Source: Ignavibacteriales bacterium
GTDB lineage: Bacteria > Bacteroidota > Ignavibacteria > Ignavibacteriales > Melioribacteraceae
Direction of reading: 5' to 3'
Assembly (NCBI GenBank): GCA_016177735.1
Contig: JACOUS010000018.1
Location: 124,001-188,000, forward strand
DNA: 64,000 nt
Shown: positions 47,651 to 61,962 of the stretch, in pieces
Position numbering within the stretch: the first letter of the stretch is position 1
How the letters are laid out: every line of letters starts with the position of its first letter
Notes under the pieces: generated by a model
The model's input: only the letters and a program-made list of their open reading frames with translations
The model's database searches: none
Told to the model about the DNA's origin: nothing
Made by a program: the position numbers and the translations under genes

Positions 47651-48664
47651 TCAGTTGTTGAATACGTTTATCTTGCCGTCCATGTGTTTTGTTTTGTCGA
47701 TGATTTCACCTTTGTTGTTTATAACACCGACATGGCAAGTTGCACACGAGCGCAGTTCTGAAGCCACATGACCCGTCGGCGGTAATCCGTGACAAGTTCC
47801 GCAAGCGGCTTGTGTATCATCAACTTTATTCCAAACCGGCTGGAAATTATTGCCCGTGATTTCATCTGCAGTGTATGCAAATGAGTAAGAAGAATTTGCT
47901 TTGCTGAATTTGAAACTGCCGTGGCAGTATGTGTTACTGCATTTGTTGTCGCCCGGATTATAAGTCGGCACGTCTATGCCCGAAGAACTGAAACTTCCGA
48001 AAATAATTTCTGCTTTCGGAGAGTTATCAATGTGTCCGGCTGAACTAAATTTTGCCGGCACAACATGGCATTCTTCGCAAGAAACATTTTGTGCAATTGA
48101 TGCCGCAGACAAATGTTTAACGTGCGCTCCAACTCCGGCGTCGGTTGTACTTGTTGAATCATTCAAAGCTTGCGGAGGTGCAATTGATGTTGCGGCTGCA
48201 AAATCTCCATGACATGTATTGCAAGCTTCCGGTCCGCCGGATTTACTATGACAAGTGTAGCAAGTTGGGCTTGTAATTCCGCCGGCATAATTTGCACCAT
48301 GGCATTGTGAACATTGATCAAGCTTCCAATTTGCTGCCGCGATAAATTTTCCGTGGAAGTGTTCCGACCCTTTAATTAACATTCCGTCCACGTGCACGTT
48401 AATTGCCGGGTGACAGTTGTTATTGTTACAGTTAACTTTTGCCGTACCGCCGGAAAAATCCGATGCATGGCATCGTTTGCAGTCATCCATGTTATCGTTA
48501 ACAAGCTGTCTGCCGTGGAAATCCGAAGAACTTTTTACAAGCACATCTTTTCCGTGCACGCCGATAGTAACCGGCGGCGCTATTTCATTCTGAATATCAC
48601 TGCATGAGGTAACTGCAATTCCAACAGCTAATAAAATTGTGAGATAAATTTTTGTGTATTTCAT
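47651..48664 (-). CDS. Multihaem cytochrome c lipoprotein (outer-surface candidate)
   Basis: A 337-aa lipoprotein with lipobox AVTSC (Cys21) and nine haem sites: seven CXXCH and two CX4CH (CNNNNCH, CSNTYCH). The CX4CH pattern with nearby GCHG-like spacing recalls the metal-reducer outer-surface cytochromes (Geobacter-type). It is the last gene of a porin-cytochrome operon, 24 bases after the 14-haem gene, so it may be the outward-facing subunit of the conduit. Confidence 0.9.
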   Translation of the reverse strand: MKYTKIYLTILLAVGIAVTSCSDIQNEIAPPVTIGVHGKDVLVKSSSDFHGRQLVNDNMDDCKRCHASDFSGGTAKVNCNNNNCHPAINVHVDGMLIKGSEHFHGKFIAAANWKLDQCSQCHGANYAGGITSPTCYTCHSKSGGPEACNTCHGDFAAATSIAPPQALNDSTSTTDAGVGAHVKHLSAASIAQNVSCEECHVVPAKFSSAGHIDNSPKAEIIFGSFSSSGIDVPTYNPGDNKCSNTYCHGSFKFSKANSSYSFAYTADEITGNNFQPVWNKVDDTQAACGTCHGLPPTGHVASELRSCATCHVGVINNKGEIIDKTKHMDGKINVFNN

Positions 48665-48688
48665 AATCTACCCAAGAGATTGAATTAA

Positions 48689-49894
48689 CTAATTATGACA
48701 ATATCCGCAGAATCCAACTCCTCTGATTCCGTTTGGTCTGGCGTTGGCATCTGTATGACATGAATAGCAGATTGAATTTTCATCTGAATGCCAGTCGCCG
48801 CCTTCATCATCACGCAAGAAATTTCTTTCGTGAGTTTTCGGATTGGTGCCTTTAACGCCGTCGTTATCAACGTGGCAAAGAATGCAATTAGCATCAGCGC
48901 CTTGAACATCATGGCACGATGCACATTGTTCGATATCGCGTTTTGCCAATATTGCATGTTGACCTCCGCCGCTGCCGACTCCGATTGTTGCAAAGTTTGC
49001 AGATTTGTGTGATGAAGGAACAAAACCTTCCAATGCAAAATCTCCACCTTCGGAATCATGGCACTCTGCGCAGAATGTTTCTGTTTGATGGCATGTTTGA
49101 CACTCGCTCGATTTTCCTTTTGCATCAATTCCGTGCGAGTAGCGGTAATTCATGTCGTGCACGCGTGCAATGTTTTGTTGTTTTGTATTGTCCGTAAAAT
49201 TGTGCGGCGAGTAAGGTGTAATGAAATCACGGTCGGCATTTGTTTCAGTCAGCATTGTTGTTGCAGTGTGACATGTTTCGCAGAAGGTGTTATCATGGCA
49301 CATCTCGCATTCTGCTTTCGGTGATTCAGCATGAAACTTATGTGACTTCACAAAATTTACTTGCTGATGATCTAACGGAATTAAATTCGCAGTAGAAATG
49401 TGGCATGTTTCGCAGTTGTTTGCCGCAACTGTTGATCCGTTATGACATGTGTAGCAATTGCTCATCGGAGGATTTACAGAAGCGGATTCAAATGAATATG
49501 CAACTTCGTCAAGTCCCTTATGGCAAGATTCACATTGCATGTTCTGATCGGTAACGTGCATCTTGTGATTGAAAAGCAGTTCCGATTCTTTTTGAATGAG
49601 CGGTTCGTTCACATTTTCATAATGACAGAAATTACAGTTCTCTGTGTCTTCAACATCATGACAAGCTGCACACACCGCTTTTTCGGGAAGCAGACGATCT
49701 TTCAGCGAAGTACTCGCTGCGGTTTTATCATGGCAAGTTGCACAGTCCGTAACTTCTTTGTGAACTGAATGTGAAAATTTGATAATGTCTTTGTTTGTTT
49801 TGCCCAGTGATACGTTATTTGAATCTATCGCAGCAATAGTTATGAAAACAATTATTGCAAGCGATAATACGGCGTATAAAAATTTCATTTTCAT
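48689..49894 (-). CDS. 14-haem cytochrome c (conduit subunit candidate)
   Basis: A 401-aa exported protein with 14 CXXCH motifs and many additional His for axial ligation. The N-terminal hydrophobic segment (about 4-22) is an uncleaved or standard signal. It begins six bases after the porin stop codon, so it is tightly coupled, and is the likely haem wire inserted in the porin barrel, like MtrA or the Geobacter OmaB group, though longer and with more haems than those. Confidence 0.92.
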   Translation of the reverse strand: MKMKFLYAVLSLAIIVFITIAAIDSNNVSLGKTNKDIIKFSHSVHKEVTDCATCHDKTAASTSLKDRLLPEKAVCAACHDVEDTENCNFCHYENVNEPLIQKESELLFNHKMHVTDQNMQCESCHKGLDEVAYSFESASVNPPMSNCYTCHNGSTVAANNCETCHISTANLIPLDHQQVNFVKSHKFHAESPKAECEMCHDNTFCETCHTATTMLTETNADRDFITPYSPHNFTDNTKQQNIARVHDMNYRYSHGIDAKGKSSECQTCHQTETFCAECHDSEGGDFALEGFVPSSHKSANFATIGVGSGGGQHAILAKRDIEQCASCHDVQGADANCILCHVDNDGVKGTNPKTHERNFLRDDEGGDWHSDENSICYSCHTDANARPNGIRGVGFCGYCHN

Positions 49895-49900
49895 ATAGTT

Positions 49901-51166
49901 TTAAAAGTTTGTATTGAATAAGTAATTTACTTTGAAGAGAACTCTGAAATCATTTTCGTAAATCTTGTTGTTGAAGTATTGTCCTTGAACATCAAACGAA
50001 AAAGTTCTCCACGGGCGTAGATTGCATCCGGCAGAGAGAGAAGTAATATTGTTTGCTCTGTCGCCTGCAGATAATTTGTAATTGGTAACAGATAAACCGA
50101 GAGACGGAGTTACAAATCCGTCTGCAAAAGATTTTGCAGTATAAAGCGAAATGGATTCAAGTTCGCCTGCGTAGCCGAAATTTTTTCTATAGCTCAAACT
50201 TCCGTAATTAGTATTTGCGCCGAGTGTAATTCGTGTCGAGTGATCGTCTTCGTAACTAACGTATCCAACTTTTCCGGTAAGCGTGTAAAGATCGCTCACG
50301 CGCAAATCGAAGCCGCCTTCAATTTCTTCAGTACTTCCGTAATTGAAGACAGAGAAGATTGAATTGTACCTGATCTTCGGCTCTCTGAAATTATAATAAC
50401 CGGTAATGCCGATCTCTTTTGTTACATCAAACCGGCTGTCAATTTCGAACTTTGATGTTTCGGAGTAATTCAAATCGTATTCGTAGCGTGTGCTTATATC
50501 AATATTTTCATGATTGTAAAAAACTTCTCCGGTTAGATATTTGTACTGATTGGATTTCTGCTGAATTAATCTCGTGATCGGATCGCTGTCGTCATCAAGT
50601 CTGTATGCGCTGTAATCGTATGTTCTAAAATTTTTATCGATGTAGCTGACTGCAAAACGAAAATCTTTTAATGCCGTCGTTTCGATCTTACCGCCAAGTA
50701 CGTAATCATTTGCAAGGTTATCGGTCATTTCAAGTTTCTGATATGCCGGAACATTTCCACCATAATACCCCGCAACTGCAAAATCGGAATATTTTATTTT
50801 CAGACTGACACCGTCGAACAAACCACCGGCAACCGGAGTGAAGAGAGGCTGCCTTCCGAGTTTTAATGTAGCGGCATTAAAAATATCTCTCGCTTCAAAA
50901 TATAAATTATAAAACCTGAGCCGAGCATCGTTATCCAATGTTTTGCCGATGTTTGATTCAAGGTTTGTACGAGTGCGGAGAGAAAATTTATTGTAATTGA
51001 AATTTAGGTTGAGTGCTTGAAATGATCGTATAAATGTTTCCGAACTTGCGGTAGAATTATATCTTTCGAAAGTATAGAAAGAAGAAGAAAATCTGCCGTT
51101 AAGATTTTGTGCAGATACCATCATCGGCAGAAACAAAATTAAATTTAGGAAAATCAGCTTTTTCAT
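49901..51166 (-). CDS. Outer-membrane porin of porin-cytochrome conduit
   Basis: A 421-aa predicted beta-barrel. Signal peptide 1-19 (ending MVSAQ), then long amphipathic strands with regular turns and a C-terminal aromatic residue (VNYLFNTNF). It has no CXXCH. Its place between a 4-haem and a 14-haem cytochrome gene, with gaps of 14 and 6 bases, matches porin-cytochrome complexes (MtrB-like or OmbB-like by position, not by visible sequence identity). Confidence 0.82.
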   Translation of the reverse strand: MKKLIFLNLILFLPMMVSAQNLNGRFSSSFYTFERYNSTASSETFIRSFQALNLNFNYNKFSLRTRTNLESNIGKTLDNDARLRFYNLYFEARDIFNAATLKLGRQPLFTPVAGGLFDGVSLKIKYSDFAVAGYYGGNVPAYQKLEMTDNLANDYVLGGKIETTALKDFRFAVSYIDKNFRTYDYSAYRLDDDSDPITRLIQQKSNQYKYLTGEVFYNHENIDISTRYEYDLNYSETSKFEIDSRFDVTKEIGITGYYNFREPKIRYNSIFSVFNYGSTEEIEGGFDLRVSDLYTLTGKVGYVSYEDDHSTRITLGANTNYGSLSYRKNFGYAGELESISLYTAKSFADGFVTPSLGLSVTNYKLSAGDRANNITSLSAGCNLRPWRTFSFDVQGQYFNNKIYENDFRVLFKVNYLFNTNF

Positions 51167-51180
51167 TTTAAGCCTGTCTC

Positions 51181-51744
51181 TTATTTTGCCGCTGGAACTT
51201 TATGAGCAATCTTTGCCCACATTTCATCAAACTTGAATTCTTTGTAAGTCGGGCTTTGTTCATTATGGCAGCTTTTGCAGCCCTTTTCAATTTCTGTGTT
51301 GTCTTTCCAAATTATTAAACCGTTCTTTACTGATTCTTCACGGCTCTTCATTACTTTCAACGTTTTGTATGCAGAACCGGCGCCGTGACAAGTTTCGCAT
51401 TGAACGCCCTCTTCGATTTTGAATTTCGGACCGATCAATTTTTTATCTGCAACATCATGACCGGCTGCATGGCATTTCAAACATTCCGGCGACTCAACTG
51501 CCTTTGTAGCGAGTCCTTTCTCTTTGGCAATTTTATCTGCTTCTTCAGTCATCAAAGCTTTGTAAGCGTTTGCGTGTTTGCTTTCTTGCCATATCTTTAA
51601 CTGCTGTCCTTGTTTTTCTGTTTTATGGCACGTACCGCAAACTTGTGTACCTTCGTACCCGTTTGATTGTGCGGCAGTGTTAACCGGAAGAACTAAATAA
51701 ACGGCTACAAAAAAAGTCAGGATAAATCCGCTTCTTTTCAACAT
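51181..51744 (-). CDS. Tetrahaem cytochrome c (cytochrome c554-like)
   Basis: A 187-aa exported cytochrome with signal peptide (1-25) and four haem sites: CGTCH, CLKCH, CETCH and CKSCH. The spacing, with CLKCHAAGH and a CETCHGAGS, is like the cytochrome c554/c-prime family. ATG 51744 is chosen because AGGAG lies upstream; the frame opens 8 codons earlier. It could carry electrons across the periplasm to the conduit. Confidence 0.9.
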   Translation of the reverse strand: MLKRSGFILTFFVAVYLVLPVNTAAQSNGYEGTQVCGTCHKTEKQGQQLKIWQESKHANAYKALMTEEADKIAKEKGLATKAVESPECLKCHAAGHDVADKKLIGPKFKIEEGVQCETCHGAGSAYKTLKVMKSREESVKNGLIIWKDNTEIEKGCKSCHNEQSPTYKEFKFDEMWAKIAHKVPAAK

Positions 51745-51899
51745 GGTTTTTCTCCTATAAATGGGCAAAAAATTATTCCGTGTTAAGAACTTTATTAATC
51801 TTTTTTAAAATATGGACATATGTATTAAAAGGCAATTATGTCCTTTTATTTAGATTTTGTATTCCTAAATACATTTAATGAAGTAGGTCAATTAAAATA

Positions 51900-51975
51900 A
51901 TGAGAGCGTTTCCTCGCACTGCAAAAGTAAGTGAGGAAAGGTCATCACAAGTAGCTATTGGATGACCTTGTAAAT
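51900..51975 (-). repeat. Inverted repeats after the cytochrome c/b fusion gene
   Basis: AAGGTCATC and GATGACCTT face each other across a short loop, and next to them CCTCAC and GTGAGG repeat. There is no strong T-run. It could be a weak terminator or attenuator between the 813-aa gene and the conduit operon. Confidence 0.4.
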
Positions 51976-51980
51976 GCAAT

Positions 51981-54422
51981 TTATTTTTTTTGATTCTCTG
52001 TGCCGTTCTCTTCGGTTACCGGGTTTAATTTTTTATCGAGCCAGCTTCTTAATTCAAGATCGTTATTCAATTCGGAATCTATTATCAAATCCGGATCCAG
52101 TCCGTTTTTCTCCAGCGTTGAAGTAAAGAGGAGAGTAGAATTGCTGAGTTTTTTTAATGTACGCTTTTCAGCTTTGAATTCTTTCCATTCGAGAACAACT
52201 TTGCGGAAATGTTTTTCGTGATGATGGCGATAATTTTTTAAGGTCATTTTGCCGTCAATCCATGTTAAACTCATGGGATATTCGTGCGGATGGAAAATTA
52301 CAAAGAACCAGTGCCAAACAAGTATTGCAAGTGTTGCAAGTATTGCTTCGTAGAAGTGAATTAATTCGCTGACTTTAATTAACCAAACCGGTGCCCAATC
52401 GCCAACAACAGTCGGGAACCAAAGAATAAATCCGGTTACTCCCATAACAATAGTTCCCCAAATCAATGCCCAGTATTCGGCTTTTTCGGTGTAATCATAT
52501 TTATCAAATTTCGGTTTTGTCTCTTTCAGTTTCAGATAGTAGAGAATGTTATCTCGCGCTTCAATTAAATCGCTGAACTTCGGAAGCATATTGAATAGAA
52601 CGTCTCTTCCGCGCGCAGTGAAAATCAAATAAAAAATGTGATAAGCACCGGACACAATCATAACAACTGCGGCTGTGCGGTGAATATTTTGGCGGACAGT
52701 TTCGGTCATTCCAAAAAATTGAAGCAGTTCTGACCACCAGCTATCGTGGAATTTTAATGCAAAGCCGGTAATTGCAAGTGTTAAGAATGAAACCAAAAGG
52801 ATGAGATGCTGCACAACTTCATTTTTTGTGAAGCGCGGAATGGCAATTTCTCTTTGCTGATGTTTTCTCTTTTTCTTGATCTCGTAAACAAAAATTAGAA
52901 CGTTGTGAAGAATCATTCCGCCGATTACCGAAATGATCAACCAGAAATAAATTGTTGTGACGATATCTTCAATCTTTGCGGCAAGTTTATTCTGTGTTAC
53001 GTGTGAATAGCTTTGTGCAAAAACCGGTGCAGCTTCCGGATGGCATTTCTTGCAAGTTTCCGTAACGTTTGCCGGATTAATTGAAGAAGCCGGATGTTCT
53101 TGCGGTAAAATTTTGTGAACACTGTGACAGTCAACGCACATAGCCGCATCTTTATCGCCGCGCATTACTGCAAGTCCGTGATAGCTGTCCTGATATAATT
53201 TTGCCTGCTCGCTGTTCTTGCCGAATCTTTCCGAGATGCGCGGATTTTCATGGCATGCGATGCAAGTCTTTTCCTGAATCTTTTTAATTTCTTCGCGTTT
53301 GTTTCCGTTGCTGATTGTATGAATGCTGTGTTCGCTATGGCAGTCGTTACAAACCGGTGCTTCTCTAAATCCTTTCTTAGCACGAATCCAATGAATCGAT
53401 TGTTCGTAATCTTCCACAATTTCTTTGTGGCAAGTGCCGCAAGTCTGCGGAACGTTGTACGCAGAAATTGTAGAGCCGGGCTGAACTTTATTTTTTATGT
53501 TATGAGTTCCATGGCAAGTAGAACAATTCGGTGCATCGGTTCTTCCTTTGCTTACAAGCACGCCGTGAATTGATTTCGAATATGTCTTTCCCGGTTCGGG
53601 CATTGCGAGATTAAATTTCTTTGCAAGCTTCGGATTGTCATGGCATTTGCCGCATGTTTCTGCAATATTTTTCGGATGAACTTTACTCGATTCGCTTTTA
53701 ACATGTTTGATATCGTGCGAACCGTGACAGTTCCAGCACATCGCAGCTTCATCAATTCCTTCGCTTAGAGAAATTCCGTGAATACTTTCCCGGTGTTCTT
53801 TCGCAATTTCATTATGGCATAAATAGCAGTCTGCTTTTTGTGTTGCACCGACATTTTTAGGATGGTTCGTAAGATTGTTCGATATATAATTATGGCAGTC
53901 TGCGCATTCCAAATTTTTATGTACGGAAGAGGGAAGAGTTAATTTTGTATCAACATTTTTATGACAGCTTAAACATTTATTTTTGCTTGTAACAACCGAG
54001 TGATACGGATTGGCAAGTGTCTTTGATGTATGGCACTTTGAACAATACTCTTTTACTTTTTGTGAATTTGTAACCGGAGGTTTTTTTATTTCATGATTTC
54101 CATGGCACGAAATACAACTTGGCGGGTTTTTCACTTTTAATCTGTGATGAACATCCGACTGCACTGCAGAAGTTTTATCATCATGACAAGTTCCGCAGTC
54201 AACTTTTTTTACGCCTTTCTCCATATGCTCTTCATCGGTAACATCATCATGGCAGCCCTGGCAGTCGATTGCGTCTTTGTGAACCGATTTATCTATTGAT
54301 ATTTCATGACAGTCCGAGCAGTTAAAATCCTGAGCGTAACTTTTATTATTTGTTCCGATGATTAAAATTATTGCTGTGAAAGCTAAAATTTTAAGAGCTG
54401 CATAAGGATTTTTCAATATCAC
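51981..54422 (-). CDS. Inner-membrane multihaem cytochrome c / cytochrome b fusion (CbcL-like)
   Basis: An 813-aa protein. An N-terminal signal anchor (8-25) leads into a periplasmic region to about residue 465 with 16 CXXCH sites. Then come about five to six helices (about 485-720) of the cytochrome b561/NiFe-hydrogenase b type with conserved His (for example HLILLV, HRTAAV, HFYEA, WHWFFVIFHPHEYP). This layout matches CbcL of Geobacter, a menaquinol-oxidising cytochrome. The start is GTG at 54422, preceded by CGGAG. It has more haems than CbcL. Confidence 0.9.
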   Translation of the reverse strand: MILKNPYAALKILAFTAIILIIGTNNKSYAQDFNCSDCHEISIDKSVHKDAIDCQGCHDDVTDEEHMEKGVKKVDCGTCHDDKTSAVQSDVHHRLKVKNPPSCISCHGNHEIKKPPVTNSQKVKEYCSKCHTSKTLANPYHSVVTSKNKCLSCHKNVDTKLTLPSSVHKNLECADCHNYISNNLTNHPKNVGATQKADCYLCHNEIAKEHRESIHGISLSEGIDEAAMCWNCHGSHDIKHVKSESSKVHPKNIAETCGKCHDNPKLAKKFNLAMPEPGKTYSKSIHGVLVSKGRTDAPNCSTCHGTHNIKNKVQPGSTISAYNVPQTCGTCHKEIVEDYEQSIHWIRAKKGFREAPVCNDCHSEHSIHTISNGNKREEIKKIQEKTCIACHENPRISERFGKNSEQAKLYQDSYHGLAVMRGDKDAAMCVDCHSVHKILPQEHPASSINPANVTETCKKCHPEAAPVFAQSYSHVTQNKLAAKIEDIVTTIYFWLIISVIGGMILHNVLIFVYEIKKKRKHQQREIAIPRFTKNEVVQHLILLVSFLTLAITGFALKFHDSWWSELLQFFGMTETVRQNIHRTAAVVMIVSGAYHIFYLIFTARGRDVLFNMLPKFSDLIEARDNILYYLKLKETKPKFDKYDYTEKAEYWALIWGTIVMGVTGFILWFPTVVGDWAPVWLIKVSELIHFYEAILATLAILVWHWFFVIFHPHEYPMSLTWIDGKMTLKNYRHHHEKHFRKVVLEWKEFKAEKRTLKKLSNSTLLFTSTLEKNGLDPDLIIDSELNNDLELRSWLDKKLNPVTEENGTENQKK

Positions 54423-54740
54423 TATTTACTCCGATGATAGTTGATTTAGAAAACATTAAGATTGTTGTGCAGTGCAAAAATCATGCTTAAAAATTTCGTC
54501 TCGCATTTAATGATAAACTGAATATTTGGCAAATTTAATGTGGGTCTGCAAAGTTCTGTTCAGATTATTATTGTATATGAGAATTCGGTTTCAAGATCTA
54601 ATAAGATAATGGACTTAAATATCCTTTCACAAAATATTTAGTTATCGATACTTTGTCAATGAGATAAAATAGAATGAGAAGAATTTTATTTCCAGAGAAG
54701 AGGTCTTAAAAGTGTGAAAGAAAATTAAACTGCAAACGGC
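54423..54740. other. Gene-free spacer upstream of the cytochrome c/b fusion
   Basis: AT-rich, no ORF. It should hold the promoter of the conduit operon on the minus strand. No clear regulatory motif or riboswitch (in particular no GEMM-type motif) was recognised. Confidence 0.5.
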
Positions 54741-54823
54741 TTATTCTTACACTCGCACGTGCTCATGATCTTGCGCTGATCTTTGAAGATCAAGCTTAAG
54801 AACATGAGCATGAGCAAGAATAA
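54741..54823. repeat. Imperfect 83-base palindrome (CATGATCTTG family), copy 2
   Basis: Outer arms TTATTCTT and AAGAATAA; inner arms GCTCATGATCTTG and CAAGCTTAAGAACATGAGC; centre GATCTTTGAAGATC. Related to 36023-36093. It sits directly after the second response regulator and probably ends the redox-sensor operon. Confidence 0.7.
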
Positions 54824-54844
54824 TAGGTCTTGAAATACAATATA

Positions 54845-55993
54845 TTATTTTTTGAAAAACTCGCCGGTGATAGAATACCAATCTTTTTCTTTAAGATTTT
54901 CTAATTGACCCCAGTTTAGTTCAAAACTACCGTCTGTTTCTATTTTCATTACTTCTTTGATTCTCTTTAAATAGCAGTCAATCTCTTCCTGATAAAAATT
55001 CATTGCGTTCTTTCCGATTTTGAGCTGCTGTAATTCGGTTTCGATTTTATCAGCATCAATTATGCAAATCCAGTTTTTTTCGTACGGGGTGAATTCAAGC
55101 AGTTCGATGTTATCCATCAATTCATGATTAATCGATTTTACTTGTCCGCTTACCGGCGAAAGAAATTGTACCGACTTGTTCCCTTGTTTGATTCCGAAAA
55201 TAGGCTGACCGGCAGTTATATTCATTCCGAGGTTTGGAAAATCTATGCCGTCAATTTTGCCGATCAATTTTTTTGCAAAATCATCGAGACCGATTTTAAC
55301 AGCTCCGTCTTGCGAAATTCCAGCCCAGCAATGTCCTTCGGAAATAAAAACTCCGCCGGGAATAGTGAATTCGCCAGAACCAAGTTTTTCTGTTTCGGAA
55401 ATGTGTGCAATGTGTACCCTCGGCTTCAATTGTTTTTGAATTCTGTCTTGCCGTTTGATGAGCGATCTTTTTGTGAACTCGAGAAGCTCGTCTTCTGTAA
55501 ACGGTTTTTGAACGTAATCCATCGCACCGAACTTCATGCATTCAACGGCAGTTTCAACTGTTGCGTAACCGGTGATAATTATTACATCAATATCGGGACG
55601 AAGATTTTTTACAACTTTGGTTACCTCAACACCGTCCATCTCCGGCATTTTTAAATCGGTGAATACAAAATCGTAATGATTGGTTTTTATAAGATTAACT
55701 GCTTCTGCGCCGGCACTCACCGTATCAACAGAGTAACCGTCGAGCACAAGAATTTTTCTGAAGCTATCGAGAATAACATCTTCATCATCAACACATAAAA
55801 TTTTTGCTTTTGCGTTTTGAACTTCCGCACGTTTCAGTGAAACAGCTTCTTTGCTGAAATCAACTTTAACAGCTTCCTCGAGAACAGCTTTTCTTTCTTT
55901 GCGGAGTTTGCTTTCGTTGATCTTTTTTATTGTAAATCTGATGATGACATCAGCAACAATAAATATTATAACTGCTAAAATAAAAAGTGCCAT
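54845..55993 (-). CDS. Membrane-anchored response regulator with H-protein-like output
   Basis: A 382-aa protein with an N-terminal membrane helix (2-20), charged linker, receiver domain (about 64-180; Asp113 in FTDLKMPEMDG, Lys163) and a C-terminal domain (about 210-330) like glycine cleavage H-protein: GHCWAGISQDG, VKIGLDDFA, and SPVSGQVKSIN. There is no clear lipoyl Lys at the expected site (QGNKSVQFLSP; nearest is Lys273). No DNA-binding domain. ATG 55993 is chosen for the AGGAG upstream. Confidence 0.88.
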   Translation of the reverse strand: MALFILAVIIFIVADVIIRFTIKKINESKLRKERKAVLEEAVKVDFSKEAVSLKRAEVQNAKAKILCVDDEDVILDSFRKILVLDGYSVDTVSAGAEAVNLIKTNHYDFVFTDLKMPEMDGVEVTKVVKNLRPDIDVIIITGYATVETAVECMKFGAMDYVQKPFTEDELLEFTKRSLIKRQDRIQKQLKPRVHIAHISETEKLGSGEFTIPGGVFISEGHCWAGISQDGAVKIGLDDFAKKLIGKIDGIDFPNLGMNITAGQPIFGIKQGNKSVQFLSPVSGQVKSINHELMDNIELLEFTPYEKNWICIIDADKIETELQQLKIGKNAMNFYQEEIDCYLKRIKEVMKIETDGSFELNWGQLENLKEKDWYSITGEFFKK

Positions 55994-56015
55994 ATTTATT
56001 TCTCCTAAGTTGTAT

Positions 56016-56810
56016 TTATCGGCATCCGTTTGAACTGCATGATGCAAGAAGTTTTATTTCATAATCATACTCGCCTGGTATAATTCTATAAAGCCAGCCG
56101 TTGAAGTAAGGATCTTTTTCCAACAGTGATATATCATTTAATAATTTTTCGTTTCTATCAATTATTCTTCCGCTGATTGCCGAATAGAGCTGATGAACCG
56201 ATTCGTCTTCGCAGATAATTTTTGCCGCTGTTAACGCCTGATTGATTGCTTCGTCCCGCTCCATCAATTCGATTGTTTTCATGTTCTCTATTGTTTTTAA
56301 AAACAAATCCGTTGCGCCGATTAAAACAGTGCCGTCATAATCCGTGTTGAGCCAGCATGAATAGCCCAAACAAAAATATCTTGGCGGGCACTGAACATAA
56401 AAAAGCGAACCGGTTTTTTCCGTATCGGCATCGACCAATTTTTTATACTTAACTCCGCGTTTCATTATGCTTGTCATTTCATCGAACGTGAAAGGCTTCG
56501 GAATAAAATCAATTGCACCGAGCTGTAAAGATTTTACGGCGTTTTCCATTGTTGAATAACCGGTCGTGATAACAATCGGTGTGTTGTTGCGGCGGCTTTG
56601 CATTTCACTTATAAATTGAAAACCGTCCATTTCGGGAAGCATTATATCGCAAATGATAAGCTGATAATTTTGCCCGGAAATTTTTTCAAGCGCAGTTTTT
56701 GCATCCATCGTGTAATCAACTTTGTAACCGGATATTTCCCCGATTTTGATCACCGAATCAACAACTACCTGTTCATCGTCAATTATTAATATTTCACACT
56801 GTTTATTCAT
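56016..56810 (-). CDS. Response regulator with H-protein-like output
   Basis: A 264-aa soluble protein. Receiver domain 5-122 (Asp55 in IICDIMLPEMDG, Lys105). From about 140 an H-protein-like domain: YDGTVLIGATDLFL, then ESVHQLYSAISGRI, and the end NGWLYRIIP. In true H-protein the motif is ESVKA with lipoyl Lys; here His206 follows ESV and no Lys is near. So it cannot be lipoylated in the usual way. It starts 2 bases after the kinase gene. Confidence 0.88.
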   Translation of the reverse strand: MNKQCEILIIDDEQVVVDSVIKIGEISGYKVDYTMDAKTALEKISGQNYQLIICDIMLPEMDGFQFISEMQSRRNNTPIVITTGYSTMENAVKSLQLGAIDFIPKPFTFDEMTSIMKRGVKYKKLVDADTEKTGSLFYVQCPPRYFCLGYSCWLNTDYDGTVLIGATDLFLKTIENMKTIELMERDEAINQALTAAKIICEDESVHQLYSAISGRIIDRNEKLLNDISLLEKDPYFNGWLYRIIPGEYDYEIKLLASCSSNGCR

Positions 56811-56812
56811 TT

Positions 56813-58696
56813 TTATGCGAGAGGTAATTTGATTGAAAAAGTTGTTCCATTGCCTATTTCACTTTGCACGTTAATAGTTCCGTTGTGGTTATCAATTATT
56901 CCCCACACAACAGAAAGACCCAGTCCGGTTCCGCGTTGTCCTTTTGTAGAAAAGAACGGCTCGAAAATTTTATTCAGGTTTTCCGGCGGTATGCCGCACC
57001 CGTTGTCTGCAATTTGAATCTCTACATATTTTTTTTCACCGCCGCCGTCAACAAATTCCCATTTTTGCCAGTTGTCTTTGAATGAAGCGCATCCTTCAAC
57101 AAATCCTTGATTCGGGATTTGTATTTTATAAACCGGTCCGCCGCACTCGGGGCATTTTGCATTTTTATCTATTAATGATAAATCACAAACGGGGCAGTTC
57201 AACATAACATTTGGATTTTTTTCGAAAGCGATTCCAAAAAAATGCCGGTGGTTTCCGTAAATAGGATCGAGATGAACAAAGCCTTGATTGCCGTTCGATT
57301 TTATTTTCAGCCTGATCGATGAATTTCCGCCGATCTTGTATTCGTTGTTAATCAAACTATGATTCTTCGGGCAGACGCATTTTTTTATGTGCTTTATTCC
57401 TTTCGGTGAAAGAGTGATCAGCGAAGTGCCGATTGTAATCACGCCGCCGTTTGTGCCCGATGCATCGATAGCATTTAAAATTAAATTCAGAAAAACTTGC
57501 TGTATCTGGTTTGCATCCGCAGTAATCTTCGGAAGGTTTGTATCGAATTTTTTTACAAGATTGATTTTGCCGAACTTCAATTGGTTGTTAACAACTGCAA
57601 TTGCGCGGTTAATAATTTCGTTAACATCAATCATAGTTTTTTTGGGGGTTGACTGCCGTGCAAAATCGAGAAGACCTTTCACAATTTCGCGGCTGCGCAT
57701 CGTTTCCCGTACAATCACGTTTAAATCTTCTTGAAGCTGCGGATTCTCTTTTGCTCTTTTCAATAAGTAACTGCTGTAAGTTAAAACTCCGGTTAACGGA
57801 TTATTAATTTCGTGGGCAACACCGGCGGCAAGTCTTCCGAGCGAAGCCATTTTATCCGATTGAACAAGCTGATGCTGTGTGTCTTCAAGTTTTTTGATCA
57901 TGTTGTTAAAAGATTCGCCGAGGTAACCGAGTTCATCTGTGCCGGGTTCTTTTATTAGATAATTCAAATTGCCGAGAGCAACTTCGTTGGTCGCTTTCAC
58001 AAGCTCGCGCACCGGTTTATCGACCCATCTTTTCACGAAGTAACCGATAATTATTCCGAACGCCGTTATAGAAATTATCGCAAAGAGTAATTCTTGAATT
58101 TGATTGTTGGTAATCTGCTTATCAACATCTGCGAGCGAAATACTAACATCGAGAACACCAAGCACGGCTGCATATTGCGGATGTGCGTGGCACTCGGCTT
58201 CCCAGCAAGATTTTTCGTTGTAGATCGGATTGATAATTCCCATCAACCGCGTTGAATCGGGATTGAGCCTGTAAATTCTTGTTCTGTCTTTTATCGGTAA
58301 TTTTTCGAGCGGCTTGTTTTCTGCATGGCACGCATAACAACTTTCCGCTTTTTTATCGAGCATGTTTCCTATTTCATCTTCTTTCGTCGAATAAATAATT
58401 TCGCCTTCTTTGTTGAGAACACGTACATCATAAATTGCCGGGTCTTTGCCGATTGTATTTATAATTTCATGAATGTGATCTCTTTGGTTCAACAACATGC
58501 CGTAACGTGTGCTGTTCTTCACCGTTTCGCTTAATTGATTTGCATGACGCTCAACTTCTGCAAGCATTACATCTCTTTGTGATTTTATATTGAAGTACGA
58601 ATAGACTCCGATAATAATAATTGCAGTGATGCTTACGGCAATTGTGAGCTTCAATCCGATCCGTCTATAAAATCCTATTTCGTTGAATCCTTTCAT
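56813..58696 (-). CDS. Haem-c-bearing sensor histidine kinase with zinc-ribbon insert
   Basis: A 627-aa membrane sensor kinase. Helices at 15-37 and 203-222 bound a periplasmic domain with two haem c sites, CYACH (120-124) and CWEAECH (164-170, CX4CH), so it likely carries haem and senses redox state. HAMP about 223-275; HisKA with His295 (VAHEINNP); N-box Asn408. Between the N-box and the G1-box (DNGCGIPP, about 565) lies an insert of roughly 140 residues with Cys440, 442, 501, 504, 515, 518 (CPVC and CPEC), a rubredoxin/zinc-ribbon pattern. The rest of the ATPase core is intact. Confidence 0.93.
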   Translation of the reverse strand: MKGFNEIGFYRRIGLKLTIAVSITAIIIIGVYSYFNIKSQRDVMLAEVERHANQLSETVKNSTRYGMLLNQRDHIHEIINTIGKDPAIYDVRVLNKEGEIIYSTKEDEIGNMLDKKAESCYACHAENKPLEKLPIKDRTRIYRLNPDSTRLMGIINPIYNEKSCWEAECHAHPQYAAVLGVLDVSISLADVDKQITNNQIQELLFAIISITAFGIIIGYFVKRWVDKPVRELVKATNEVALGNLNYLIKEPGTDELGYLGESFNNMIKKLEDTQHQLVQSDKMASLGRLAAGVAHEINNPLTGVLTYSSYLLKRAKENPQLQEDLNVIVRETMRSREIVKGLLDFARQSTPKKTMIDVNEIINRAIAVVNNQLKFGKINLVKKFDTNLPKITADANQIQQVFLNLILNAIDASGTNGGVITIGTSLITLSPKGIKHIKKCVCPKNHSLINNEYKIGGNSSIRLKIKSNGNQGFVHLDPIYGNHRHFFGIAFEKNPNVMLNCPVCDLSLIDKNAKCPECGGPVYKIQIPNQGFVEGCASFKDNWQKWEFVDGGGEKKYVEIQIADNGCGIPPENLNKIFEPFFSTKGQRGTGLGLSVVWGIIDNHNGTINVQSEIGNGTTFSIKLPLA

Positions 58697-58698
58697 TC

Positions 58699-59817
58699 CT
58701 ACTTTGCTCTCTTCCCGGGTAAATTATTCGGATAAGATTTATCGTCGTGACAATCTTCGCATACCGGTTTTGAATACGATAATTCTTTGTGACAGTTTTC
58801 GCAATCCAACTCGCTGTGTGTTTCATCGAGCACTAAACCGGTTGACTTGTGTTTGAAGTTTTCCAAAGTCCAAGTTCCGTGGCAAGTTTTGCATTCATTG
58901 TTCAATCCTTTGAATCCGGATTTGCTTGTATGACAGCGGGCGCAATCAAGCTTCGAATGGAATTTCGATAAATCAAATCCCGTAACAGATTTATGATTGA
59001 ATCCGCCGGCTTCCGAATTGGAATGACACGAAGAACAATTTGATTCCGTGTTGTGACAGCTTGAACATTTTTTGTGTTTTATTTTTTCCGATATTGTTTT
59101 TGTTGATGCTGTTTTATTTGTCGAGTGGCATTTTATACAGCTCTCGTTCGAATGACAGTCCGAACATTCCAAACTGAACAAATTAATATGCTCGTTATGA
59201 TAAAACGTAACGAGCTTGCCTTGTTTTGTTTTTGCCGCAAAAGAAATTTTATCAGGAGTTTTAATTTCTGGATGAATTCTTTTTTTATTGTTCGAAACAA
59301 CTGACGTTTGTGATTTTTCTTTTCCTTTCAATTCATGGCAGACAGTGCAATCTGTACTGCCGCTCCACGCACGATGACAATTCATACATTGCTGGTGGTA
59401 TGCGCCTTTCAAATCCGGCTTGCTGATATCCGTCCGCTTGCGGGATGACTCGTGGCAATCGGAACATCCGATTACATTTCCCGGAGGATTGTAGTGATGA
59501 CATGTTCTGCATCCGCCGGCAAGCCCAGACATCTCTGCATGTGCCAAATGTGAAAACTTTACCGGTGAGTAAATATCCGTTTCTCTAATTTTATTTATTA
59601 CAAAAATTTTTGGGGCATCCGTCACCGGCTGGTCAATTCTTATCATACTTTCGCGCGGACAAACTTTTATGCACGGGTTTTCTTTTGTAGGAATATCGCA
59701 CGAATGGCATGTTGAACAAGTTAAATTTTGCGTTGAATGATTGCCGCTGATTTTGTTCTGCCCGTTAATTACAAACGGAACAATGAGCATCCAAATAAAA
59801 ATTTTATAATTCATCAT
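58699..59817 (-). CDS. 13-haem cytochrome c
   Basis: A 372-aa exported cytochrome with a signal peptide (about 1-19) and 13 CXXCH sites. The N-terminal part CSTCHSCDIPTKENPC plus IKVCPRE combines a CXXCH with additional Cys, recalling an iron-sulfur or structural site. Two later blocks look like tetrahaem c3/c7 repeats. Its ATG overlaps the NrfD-like stop codon (ATGA), and it ends 2 bases before the kinase, so the genes are one unit. Probable electron acceptor of the HybA/NrfD complex. Confidence 0.93.
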   Translation of the reverse strand: MMNYKIFIWMLIVPFVINGQNKISGNHSTQNLTCSTCHSCDIPTKENPCIKVCPRESMIRIDQPVTDAPKIFVINKIRETDIYSPVKFSHLAHAEMSGLAGGCRTCHHYNPPGNVIGCSDCHESSRKRTDISKPDLKGAYHQQCMNCHRAWSGSTDCTVCHELKGKEKSQTSVVSNNKKRIHPEIKTPDKISFAAKTKQGKLVTFYHNEHINLFSLECSDCHSNESCIKCHSTNKTASTKTISEKIKHKKCSSCHNTESNCSSCHSNSEAGGFNHKSVTGFDLSKFHSKLDCARCHTSKSGFKGLNNECKTCHGTWTLENFKHKSTGLVLDETHSELDCENCHKELSYSKPVCEDCHDDKSYPNNLPGKRAK

Positions 59818-61055
59818 TTCGCACCCCGTATCGAAAATTTTGTTTTGTGAACTGCGGGAATCTGCGGTACGCTTACAATCGGGAAGATCATTACAAATGC
59901 TCTGAACAAAAGGACTTCAATTGCAATGAAACCGGCGGTAACAAAAATTTCTCCAACAGAAGGGAAGTACGGAGTGAATTGATACGGCGGTGTGTACGCT
60001 ACTATGAAATTGTTTAATCTATTCAAGAACACGCCGAAGATTACGAGGAACGAAGCAATTGATAAACCGAGCGGCGATCTTTGTATCTGCGGCGACATAA
60101 ATAATCTTAACGGAACAATAATTCCAAGTACAAGTTCGATAACAAACATCACACTTGCAGTGTTGAATTCGGTTAAGTAAACAAATGTCTGTCTGATTAC
60201 CATATCACCTATCTTGAAAGAAAGATAAATGAATAAAATCGGGGCAATCATTCTTCCGAGTCCGGCAAGAATTGGTGTTTCGGGTTTTAAATCGAACGAT
60301 CTTGATGTTAACACTGATTCAAAAATTACCATTGGCAAACCGACCGAAATTGCTGACAACAAAAACAACAGCGGAAGAATTGGTGTCTGCCACAACGGAT
60401 GCATTTTTGGTCCGGCAATTACCATCAACGTTCCCAAAGAAGATTGATGCAGACAAGAAAGAACAACTCCGGCGATAATGAAAATGAACATCGTTTTATC
60501 GAGCCCTCTATCGAGCGCTCTTAAAAATTTATCTACACTATTGTTGTATTTTTTTAACAAGCCGGGCAAGTTTACTCTTCCGATAAATCGTTCAGTTACA
60601 ATCGGCAAAAACTCGATGTAGAGAACGGTTAAATAGATCATAACGCATATGCCTACTTCAAACAGAACAGAAGTGCCGTTCCACATAATTAGCGGATGCC
60701 AGATGTAGTAGTAACGTCCGAGATCAATTGCAACGCTCATTGCAACAAATGTGTAGCCGAGCATCGCAGTTAATAACGCCGGTCGTGTGATTAGATGATA
60801 TTCTTCTTTGTGCATGATATGACCGAGCGCGGCGGTTGTAAAACCTCCGGCGGCAAGTGCAACACCGGCGGCTACATCGATGCCAATCCAAATTCCCCAC
60901 GGATATTGATTGCTTAAATTTGTTACCGTACCGATGCCGAAAATCAATCGCGCAAAAACGAAAATGATTCCAACGAGTGCAATCACCGATAAAAAAATTA
61001 CGGTAGGTGTAAAATATTTTCTCGGCATAGGAGTTGGTTTTATAAATTCACTCAT
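59814..61055 (-). CDS. NrfD/HybB-type quinone-interacting membrane protein
   Basis: A 413-aa integral membrane protein with about 10 helices, of the NrfD/HybB/PsrC family that exchanges electrons with menaquinone. NQYPWGIWIGIDVAAGVALAAG at the start is diagnostic. No haem. It overlaps the iron-sulfur gene by 8 bases and has a strong AAGGAGG site. With the HybA-like and 13-haem proteins it forms a candidate menaquinol:cytochrome c oxidoreductase. Confidence 0.94.
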   Translation of the reverse strand: MSEFIKPTPMPRKYFTPTVIFLSVIALVGIIFVFARLIFGIGTVTNLSNQYPWGIWIGIDVAAGVALAAGGFTTAALGHIMHKEEYHLITRPALLTAMLGYTFVAMSVAIDLGRYYYIWHPLIMWNGTSVLFEVGICVMIYLTVLYIEFLPIVTERFIGRVNLPGLLKKYNNSVDKFLRALDRGLDKTMFIFIIAGVVLSCLHQSSLGTLMVIAGPKMHPLWQTPILPLLFLLSAISVGLPMVIFESVLTSRSFDLKPETPILAGLGRMIAPILFIYLSFKIGDMVIRQTFVYLTEFNTASVMFVIELVLGIIVPLRLFMSPQIQRSPLGLSIASFLVIFGVFLNRLNNFIVAYTPPYQFTPYFPSVGEIFVTAGFIAIEVLLFRAFVMIFPIVSVPQIPAVHKTKFSIRGAK

Positions 61056-61962
61056 GATTTGCCTCCTTATGTTCGTCTTGTTTGCGGTTTTTGTTGAGCC
61101 ACATTACTCCGCCAAACAGAGCATAAAGAGCAATCGGTGGAACAAAGTATGCAAAGATTCCATGTTGAATTGCCTCGCTAACACCAGGCGCCGGGTTTGT
61201 TCCGAGTTTCGGAAATTGTAATTCATGAAAATCTCTTCCGGCTAAATAGAGCCAGCTCGTTCCGCCAACTTCATGTTCTCCGTAAACATTATTTACATAA
61301 CGATCTGGGTAGAGACTAATTTTTTGATGTGCGAGATCAATAAGCTCTTCTCTTCTTCCGTATGTTAAAACTTCCATTGGACAGATTTCAACACAAGCCG
61401 GAAGTTTTCCGTCTTTAGTTCTGTCGAAACAGAAATCGCATTTGCGTACTTCGGGCTGAATTGCTTTTCCGTACTCAAATGCCGGAACCTGAAAAGGACA
61501 CGCAACCATACAATAGCGGCATCCTATGCATCTGTCCCCGTTCCAAATTACGGAACCGTTTTTCTCTTTTGAAAACGCTCCAACAATGCACGCCGATACA
61601 CAAGCCGGTTTATCGCAGTGCATACATTGTACTTTTACATCTACCGGAAATTGATCGTCTCCTTTTGCAGCGTATTCGTTTACCACAGTCAATGTTTTGT
61701 CATCGGGTCTTCTCATGTTTTTGAAAACTGATCTGTCATTGTACGATTCAATTGATTGTGCAGATAGGTTGTGTGCGGTTTTGCATGCCCATTCGCATTT
61801 GCGGCAGCCGATGCAAACCGTTGTATCAACCAAAACACCCATCCGATTTTCATCAAGAATATTATTCGGTGCAGCTTTTGCCGGCTTGGAAGAAACACCC
61901 GTCAGCCCGGCACCAATTAATGCGCTCGTTTTTAGAAAATTACGGCGAGATTGATTTGCCAT
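61048..61962 (-). CDS. HybA-like periplasmic iron-sulfur protein
   Basis: A 304-aa protein with a Tat signal (SRRNFLKTSALIGAG) and four [4Fe-4S] sites: CIGCRKCEWAC, CMHCDKPACVSAC, CIGCRYCMVAC and the CDFC/CPMEV pair. A C-terminal helix (about 270-292, FVPPIALYALFGGVMWL) anchors it, as in HybA. It accepts or gives electrons to the NrfD-like protein. First gene of a six-gene operon running to 54845. Confidence 0.94.
   Translation of the reverse strand: MANQSRRNFLKTSALIGAGLTGVSSKPAKAAPNNILDENRMGVLVDTTVCIGCRKCEWACKTAHNLSAQSIESYNDRSVFKNMRRPDDKTLTVVNEYAAKGDDQFPVDVKVQCMHCDKPACVSACIVGAFSKEKNGSVIWNGDRCIGCRYCMVACPFQVPAFEYGKAIQPEVRKCDFCFDRTKDGKLPACVEICPMEVLTYGRREELIDLAHQKISLYPDRYVNNVYGEHEVGGTSWLYLAGRDFHELQFPKLGTNPAPGVSEAIQHGIFAYFVPPIALYALFGGVMWLNKNRKQDEHKEANHE

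Follow-up and report, generated by a model that had tools for sequence, protein, structure and literature searches.

What can a two-component system deliver through an output domain that resembles the H-protein of glycine cleavage (GcvH)? The question is raised by two adjacent genes, RR1 and RR2, within a stretch of 64 000 nucleotides from an Ignavibacteriales genome (contig JACOUS010000018.1, positions 124 001 to 188 000; the whole stretch is referred to as the window). A preliminary description had proposed that they encode two response regulators, each ending in an H-protein-like domain without the lipoyl lysine, whose output would be protein contact, perhaps with the electron-transfer proteins of the same operon. 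Both open reading frames are present where that description placed them. They close an operon with the order (5' to 3') HybA, NrfD, multihaem cytochrome, haem-motif histidine kinase, RR1 and RR2:

61048..61962, minus strand: HybA/HmcB-like 4Fe-4S subunit, 304 residues, first gene of the operon (NCBIfam)
59814..61055, minus strand: NrfD-type integral membrane subunit (HybB/HmcC-like), 413 residues (Pfam NrfD, 72 bits)
58699..59817, minus strand: multihaem cytochrome c, 372 residues, Cytochrom_CIII / Cytochrome_C7 (Pfam)
56813..58696, minus strand: histidine kinase, 627 residues, with HAMP, HisKA and HATPase_c (Pfam, sequence, comparison of an insertion)
56016..56810, minus strand: RR1, soluble response regulator, 264 residues (Pfam, 15-row alignments, AF2 model)
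54845..55993, minus strand: RR2, membrane-anchored response regulator, 382 residues from ATG (Pfam, alignments, AF2 model)

The operon is tight: from HybA to RR2 adjacent genes overlap or lie 2–22 nt apart, and the end of the kinase gene adjoins RR1 at a distance of 2 nt. The gene after RR2, which encodes a fusion of a multihaem cytochrome c with b561, starts 422 nt beyond the operon. Promoter-like sites (27 versus 21.2, s.d. 4.9, in shuffled sequence) and terminator-like sites (7 versus 7.4) are roughly as frequent as in shuffled sequence. With NCBIfam the first subunit scores 326 bits as HmcB and 249 bits as HybA, and the NrfD-type subunit 352 bits as HybB-type and 273 bits as HmcC, all of these below the family cut-offs.

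Receiver and output domains

RR1 and RR2 are ordinary response regulators in their receivers and unusual in their output. Pfam places Response_reg at residues 7–115 of RR1 (99 bits) and 83–190 of RR2 (107.5 bits), and the profile search with GCV_H (cut-off 22.2 bits) finds residues 153–253 of RR1 (51.3 bits) and 237–354 of RR2 (62.8 bits), where the RR2 residues follow the numbering of a 400-residue form. This listed form starts at a TTG (to 56047) and overlaps RR1; the ATG at 55993 (MALFILAV...) yields 382 residues and agrees with the start of most RR2 homologues. No further Pfam family reaches its cut-off in either protein, hence none that is DNA-binding or catalytic, and the best 25 of 107 and 25 of 108 NCBIfam matches all fall within the receiver part. 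The claim that neither regulator has a DNA-binding or enzyme domain is thereby upheld.

RR1 consists of the receiver (7–115) and the apo-H-protein domain (about 139–256). In RR2 an N-terminal helix (2–40) is followed by the receiver (about 62–178), the apo-H-protein domain (about 212–320) and a helical tail. Both receiver sites are complete, with acidic residues Asp11/Asp12, phospho-acceptor Asp55, Thr82/Thr83 and Lys105 in RR1, and Asp69/Asp70, phospho-acceptor Asp113, Thr141 and Lys163 in RR2. One membrane helix, at the N-terminus, is found in RR2 and none in RR1, so that one regulator is soluble and the other anchored, as had been described.

The AF2 model of RR1 has a pLDDT of 85 and a pTM of 0.84, and its residues 139–264 superpose on the pea H-protein (PDB entry 1htp) with Z = 19.5 and an r.m.s.d. 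of 1.9 Å over 123 aligned residues; apart from 1htp, its fold-search list consists of receiver proteins. The RR2 model is less certain (pLDDT 78, pTM 0.45), and its best 50 matches are all receivers or receiver-bearing proteins. Structure prediction thus confirms the H-protein fold for RR1, while the H-protein domain of RR2 is assigned from sequence. When canonical H-proteins are left out of a profile of the domain, a search of the PDB sequences with it still finds E. coli GcvH, at 1.9e-25. A chance likeness to the H-protein was considered and is ruled out by the Pfam scores, the superposition on 1htp and this profile match.

The lipoyl site and the cysteines of RR1

At the column of the lipoyl lysine RR1 has Glu203 and RR2 has Asn272, as the preliminary description had noted. 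Across a broader set, in which the two window proteins and the L154/L017 duplicate are counted, lysine occupies the column in one of 50 receiver-fused and four of 74 receiver-less GcvH-like domains. The former lipoyl hairpin of RR1 is also less conserved than the domain as a whole (mean identity 0.59 versus 0.70), which speaks against the docking model set out below. The canonical GcvH of the source genome is encoded on another contig (149 bits, lysine present), and no glycine-cleavage enzyme was found by Pfam among the ten window proteins scanned.

It is extremely improbable that RR1 and RR2 are lipoylated after all, whether at Lys273 of RR2 or in some unusual way. The lysine of the window RR2 does lie one place past the canonical column, but position 273 is Lys in four, Arg in eight and Thr in two of the 14 aligned RR2 rows, and the window RR1 has no lysine at or beside the site. 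Lipoylation of RR2 at Lys273 was rejected on this lack of conservation. Since lysine is rare at the column and position 273 is variable, lipoylation at this site is not characteristic of the family, even if individual members, L204 for example, may retain it. The GcvH-like protein of L204 has a lysine at the lipoyl column within ESGKW and may be a lipoylated relative.

A GcvH relative that works with an electron-transfer complex is known: according to the main text of PMC6067878, LbpA serves Hdr-like sulfur oxidation and keeps its lipoyl lysine in all 95 aligned proteins, and it carries two cysteines, near the N- and C-termini, that are absent from GcvH. The two extra cysteines of RR1 (Cys141 and Cys258), one or both of which some wider relatives lack, may correspond to those of LbpA; RR1 differs from LbpA, like RR2, in the absence of the lysine. 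The apo-H-protein domain is a homologue of GcvH that lacks both the chemistry that defines GcvH and the lysine that marks LbpA. The word 'regulator' does not occur in the main text of PMC6067878, and that of PMC5847659 contains none of the terms GcvH, lipoyl and glycine cleavage.

The two cysteines could make the RR1 domain a thiol redox input, in which a switchable Cys141–Cys258 pair would modulate the receiver. Both residues are invariant across 15 RR1 rows, and the parallel with LbpA as presented in the main text of PMC6067878 also speaks for such a role. Among 39 RR1-type sequences, however, both cysteine motifs are missing in a protein of G290 (seen twice) and in the more distant relatives L110, L132 and L197, and the C-terminal cysteine alone is missing in L089 and in a protein of G014 (seen twice). 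RR2 has no equivalent pair, and Cys258 sits in the low-confidence tail of the RR1 model. We regard this explanation as very unlikely.

The NrfD-type neighbourhood and a proposed mechanism

Upstream sequence of 7 kb or more is available before the RR2-type gene in 27 distinct loci; they were all retrieved through the regulators' own sequence and not through NrfD, and many are close kin. In 26 of them NrfD and HybA are encoded within 6 kb upstream of that gene. The figure of 27 is a hand recount of 29 rows, in which the RR1 of L011 had scored as a second RR2-type row and L197 had counted twice. In the 27th locus, L197, receiver–GcvH proteins stand beside HdrA-, HdrB- and HdrC-like genes, and one protein combines receiver, GcvH-like and HdrC-like parts. 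Many related cassettes have a multihaem cytochrome between NrfD and the kinase; a kinase is present in L252, and a kinase frame is readable upstream of RR2 in L242. The order is not fixed, as in L110 the RR2-type gene comes first and HybA, NrfD and kinase follow. The neighbourhood alone cannot separate a subunit from a regulator. At L007 (2173–3294) and L017 (1941–3098) a second RR2-type membrane regulator opens a variant cluster with a more distant HybA–NrfD pair.

The likely partner is constrained by topology. The receivers have to lie in the cytoplasm, and for RR2 the basic stretch that follows its helix suggests this location. The window HybA carries a Tat-type signal and a C-terminal hydrophobic stretch (read in the open reading frame; the Tat motif is also seen in relatives) and should be periplasmic. 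Direct contact between the GcvH-like domain and the window HybA is therefore unlikely, the two lying on opposite sides of the membrane in the predicted topology. The Tat-type signal is found in the window cassette and its close relatives and in none of five Acidobacteriota-group loci checked. Because HybA has or lacks this signal according to the group, NrfD would be the constant membrane partner, and the sole one available in both arrangements. Of the suggestion that the output is contact with the electron-transfer proteins of the operon, the part that concerns HybA is thus weakened; such a contact as a whole has its support only in the conserved neighbourhood, in the GcvH–HdrC and receiver–GcvH–HdrC fusions and in a genome in which the kinase is missing.

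In this genome (G283, locus L121) the order is HybA–NrfD–cytochrome–RR2, and RR2 directly follows the cytochrome with no kinase or RR1 between them. The receiver of this RR2 reads FTGEK versus FTDLK elsewhere, so that the phospho-acceptor aspartate is lost. This is the only such loss among 39 RR1-type and 38 RR2-type sequences, a set from which identical proteins are dropped (L081 repeats L011) and in which some genomes occur twice; in further receivers inspected the phospho-acceptor is kept wherever this position is covered. Across the entire G283 genome a search with the window kinase returned kinase-core matches only (best 79 bits, 36%), while in the control genome G128 the same search gave a full-length match of 859 bits. 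The other match to the domain profile in G283 is a single one of canonical GcvH size. With no cassette kinase in the genome and RR2 in place, RR2 persists with the complex where the kinase is gone. Read most simply, this one genome, which sits on a long branch, suggests that RR2 also serves the NrfD complex independently of signalling, and that the receiver of RR2 degenerates after loss of the kinase.

The domains, the missing lysine, the complete receiver sites and the operon are observed, as are the breadth of the family and the weakly supported grouping of RR2 with the receiver-less apo-GcvH proteins described below. On these we build the following model. The lysine-less (apo) H-protein domain of RR1 and RR2 would be a protein-docking output module. 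The kinase, with its haem-like motifs, would read the redox state of the periplasm or of cytochromes and phosphorylate RR1, which is soluble, and RR2, which is anchored in the membrane, at their receivers. Once a regulator is phosphorylated, its apo-H-protein domain would dock differently on the NrfD-type complex, at the cytoplasmic face, and electron flow between the quinone pool and the multihaem cytochrome chain would be tuned post-translationally. The phosphotransfer, the contact with NrfD, and the effect on electron flow and its direction are all parts that we infer. Kinase-controlled docking on NrfD-type, and elsewhere Hdr-type, electron-transfer complexes has in our estimate a probability of roughly 0.48.

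The domain might instead act outside the working enzyme, as a phosphorylation-gated, chaperone-like factor for assembly or stability of the HybA–NrfD–cytochrome complex. The position in the operon, the small size, the pairing of a soluble with an anchored form and the co-occurrence with Fe–S subunits, whether or not these have a Tat-type signal, would all suit such a factor. Covalent fusions to HdrC-like domains, and to FlpD and molybdopterin-binding domains, better fit a permanent component, and we judge an assembly factor to be distinctly unlikely.

Relatives, distribution and known systems

A search for related loci gave 75, of which 14 (L005–L018) have the same architecture. Relatives of the regulators span the Bacteroidota/Ignavibacteria, Calditrichota, Acidobacteriota, Desulfobacterota and Myxococcota groups, where the names of the groups follow the titles of the loci used as group centres. 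In the phylum of the window 18 of 296 genomes, its own included, match the RR2 domain profile above 200 bits. The same threshold is passed by 14 of 40 genomes in the group of the Calditrichaceae locus (one of them in a shorter open reading frame), and RR1 and RR2 occur together in 12 of the 12 loci returned there. In the Acidobacteriota group 11 of 149 genomes exceed 117 bits in an open reading frame of 370–590 residues, all 11 with a receiver, and the eight loci retrieved all read HybA–NrfD–kinase–RR2, without RR1 or a many-haem cytochrome. A GcvH-like match at E <= 1e-24 is present in 82 of 198 Desulfobacterota-group genomes, and among 20 regions retrieved receiver fusions appear in L189 and L197 only. 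Nine of 140 Myxococcota-group genomes match at E <= 1e-20, and only the locus of G306 among 11 shows receivers. Desulfobacterota (G481, L189) and the Myxococcales-titled G306 (L153) are single cases. None of 100 Nitrospirota-group genomes matches at E <= 1e-20, an empty result that is not proof of absence.

A second type of operon combines membrane-anchored receiver-less GcvH-like proteins with HybA, NrfD, a haem-motif kinase, an NtrC-type regulator and an archaemetzincin-like M54 protein. This conserved arrangement is seen in L112, L113, L120, L122, L123 and their relatives. It often adds a second GcvH-like protein with a Cys-rich N-terminus (C-x-W...LCD...C-x-x-C; L111–L115, L118–L120 and L124–L127), in which four cysteines are invariant in 12 rows. 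The HybA of the second type has no Tat-type signal in the checked loci of the window's phylum; in the Desulfobacterota-group loci L187, L190, L200 and L202 it has one (L190 and L202 by eye).

A tree of 113 domains, which left out RR1-type domains, unites the 39 RR2-type rows in a single group with weak support (83/53). This group is nested in a 59-row set, of which the other 20 rows have no receiver. Two receiver rows of L197 fall elsewhere, and the starred branches need at least two changes of receiver label. With this weak support, RR2 appears to group with the receiver-less, lysine-less, membrane-anchored GcvH-like proteins of HybA–NrfD operons. A C-terminal tail that contains DGG is present in 58 of 74 receiver-less proteins (for example L112:7460–8203) and in none of 48 receiver-fused ones. 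A link between DGG and a nearby M54 gene was considered and is weak: of the 74 receiver-less proteins 42 combine the two, 16 have DGG without M54, ten have M54 without DGG and six have neither, counts that include related sequences, the L154/L017 duplicates and some loci ending at contig ends.

Fusions of the GcvH-like domain to HdrC-like 4Fe-4S domains occur in L197 (6233–7585, with a receiver in addition) and L151 (5621–6712). A protein of 972 residues in L192 (6604–9522) comprises 4Fe-4S, FlpD, molybdopterin-binding and C-terminal GcvH-like domains.

The sensor part of the window kinase has two haem c-like motifs, CYACH and CWEAECH, ahead of HAMP, HisKA and HATPase. It would be periplasmic, and its motifs presumably carry haem. 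A Cys-rich stretch of about 110 residues, which contains two CxxC pairs and resembles a zinc ribbon, splits HATPase_c (57077–57379; about residues 440–540 of the kinase). This insertion is found in 23 of 50 haem-motif kinases listed, all 23 in RR1 + RR2 cassettes, those of L128 and L189 with their RR1 among them; the other 27, including the kinases beside the RR1-type proteins of L110 and L197, are without it, and the counts are biased, since a kinase had to have one or more haem-like motifs to be listed.

These observations bear on the main rival to docking on NrfD, namely that the apo-H-protein domain serves the signalling pathway itself by docking on the kinase or another regulator as a scaffold or in feedback, with respiration affected via transcription. 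In the Desulfobacterota-group loci L152, L198, L201, L203 and L205 receiver-less GcvH-like proteins accompany a kinase, an NtrC-type regulator and M54, and no NrfD or HybA was recognised within about 15 kb. On account of these five loci, the apo-GcvH family may be tied to two-component signalling no less than to electron transfer. Confinement of the kinase insertion to RR1 + RR2 cassettes, as if the kinase and RR1 had co-adapted, points the same way, but the RR1-type proteins of L110 and L197 lie beside insertion-less kinases. No NtrC-type protein was found by Pfam among the window proteins scanned and no M54 match in the source genome, and RR1 and RR2 themselves have no DNA-binding part. Moreover, the RR2 of G283 stays beside NrfD without the cassette kinase and RR1, and the GcvH–HdrC fusions point to electron transfer. 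On balance a role within the signalling pathway seems fairly unlikely.

Docking on the electron-transfer complex could be put more generally. Lysine-less H-proteins would then be a general docking subunit of NrfD- and Hdr-type complexes, fused by bacteria to receivers on two or more occasions, and the resulting two-component systems would switch a respiratory complex directly and independently of transcription. We hold this wider form tentatively, as a possibility.

The relation to known proteins is mixed. RR1 and RR2 share with GcvH (PF01597; 1htp, E. coli 3a7a) the fold of the whole domain, as modelled for RR1, and clear profile homology; unlike GcvH they have no lipoyl lysine and are fused to receivers, RR2 has a membrane helix, and the canonical GcvH is encoded separately. 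RssB consists of a receiver and a degenerate phosphatase domain and acts as an adaptor. RR1 and RR2 likewise join a receiver to a domain stripped of its ancestral chemistry that would be used for contact, but their output domain is unrelated to that of RssB, RR2 is anchored in the membrane and both are tied to NrfD operons. The window HybA and NrfD score as relatives of HybA–HybB and HmcB–HmcC, below the cut-offs, and we take Cbc-type quinone–cytochrome oxidoreductases to be comparable to the window complex. We know of no HybA–HybB, HmcB–HmcC or Cbc-type complex described with a GcvH-like response regulator as partner. Among the titles and abstract openings listed from an open-access library, none described receiver–GcvH fusions or the GcvH-like proteins of NrfD operons.

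If docking on the NrfD-type complex is correct, direct contact would let a phosphorelay steer respiratory or extracellular electron flow in several phyla, more rapidly than through transcription. A large GcvH-like family, liable to automated mislabelling as glycine cleavage H-protein, would at the same time gain a first function. A GCV_H match without the lysine beside NrfD or Hdr genes would then probably not indicate glycine cleavage, which may serve as a warning for annotation.

Downstream of the operon, the genes at 47651–54422 on the same strand encode the cytochrome/b561 fusion, a cytochrome c554-type protein, a barrel-like protein (49901–51166, called by reading alone) and two multihaem cytochromes; together they resemble a conduit for extracellular electron transfer. 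An inverted-repeat-like element, GCTCATG ... CATGAGC, was spotted by eye at 54740–54830, in the gap that separates RR2 from the next gene.
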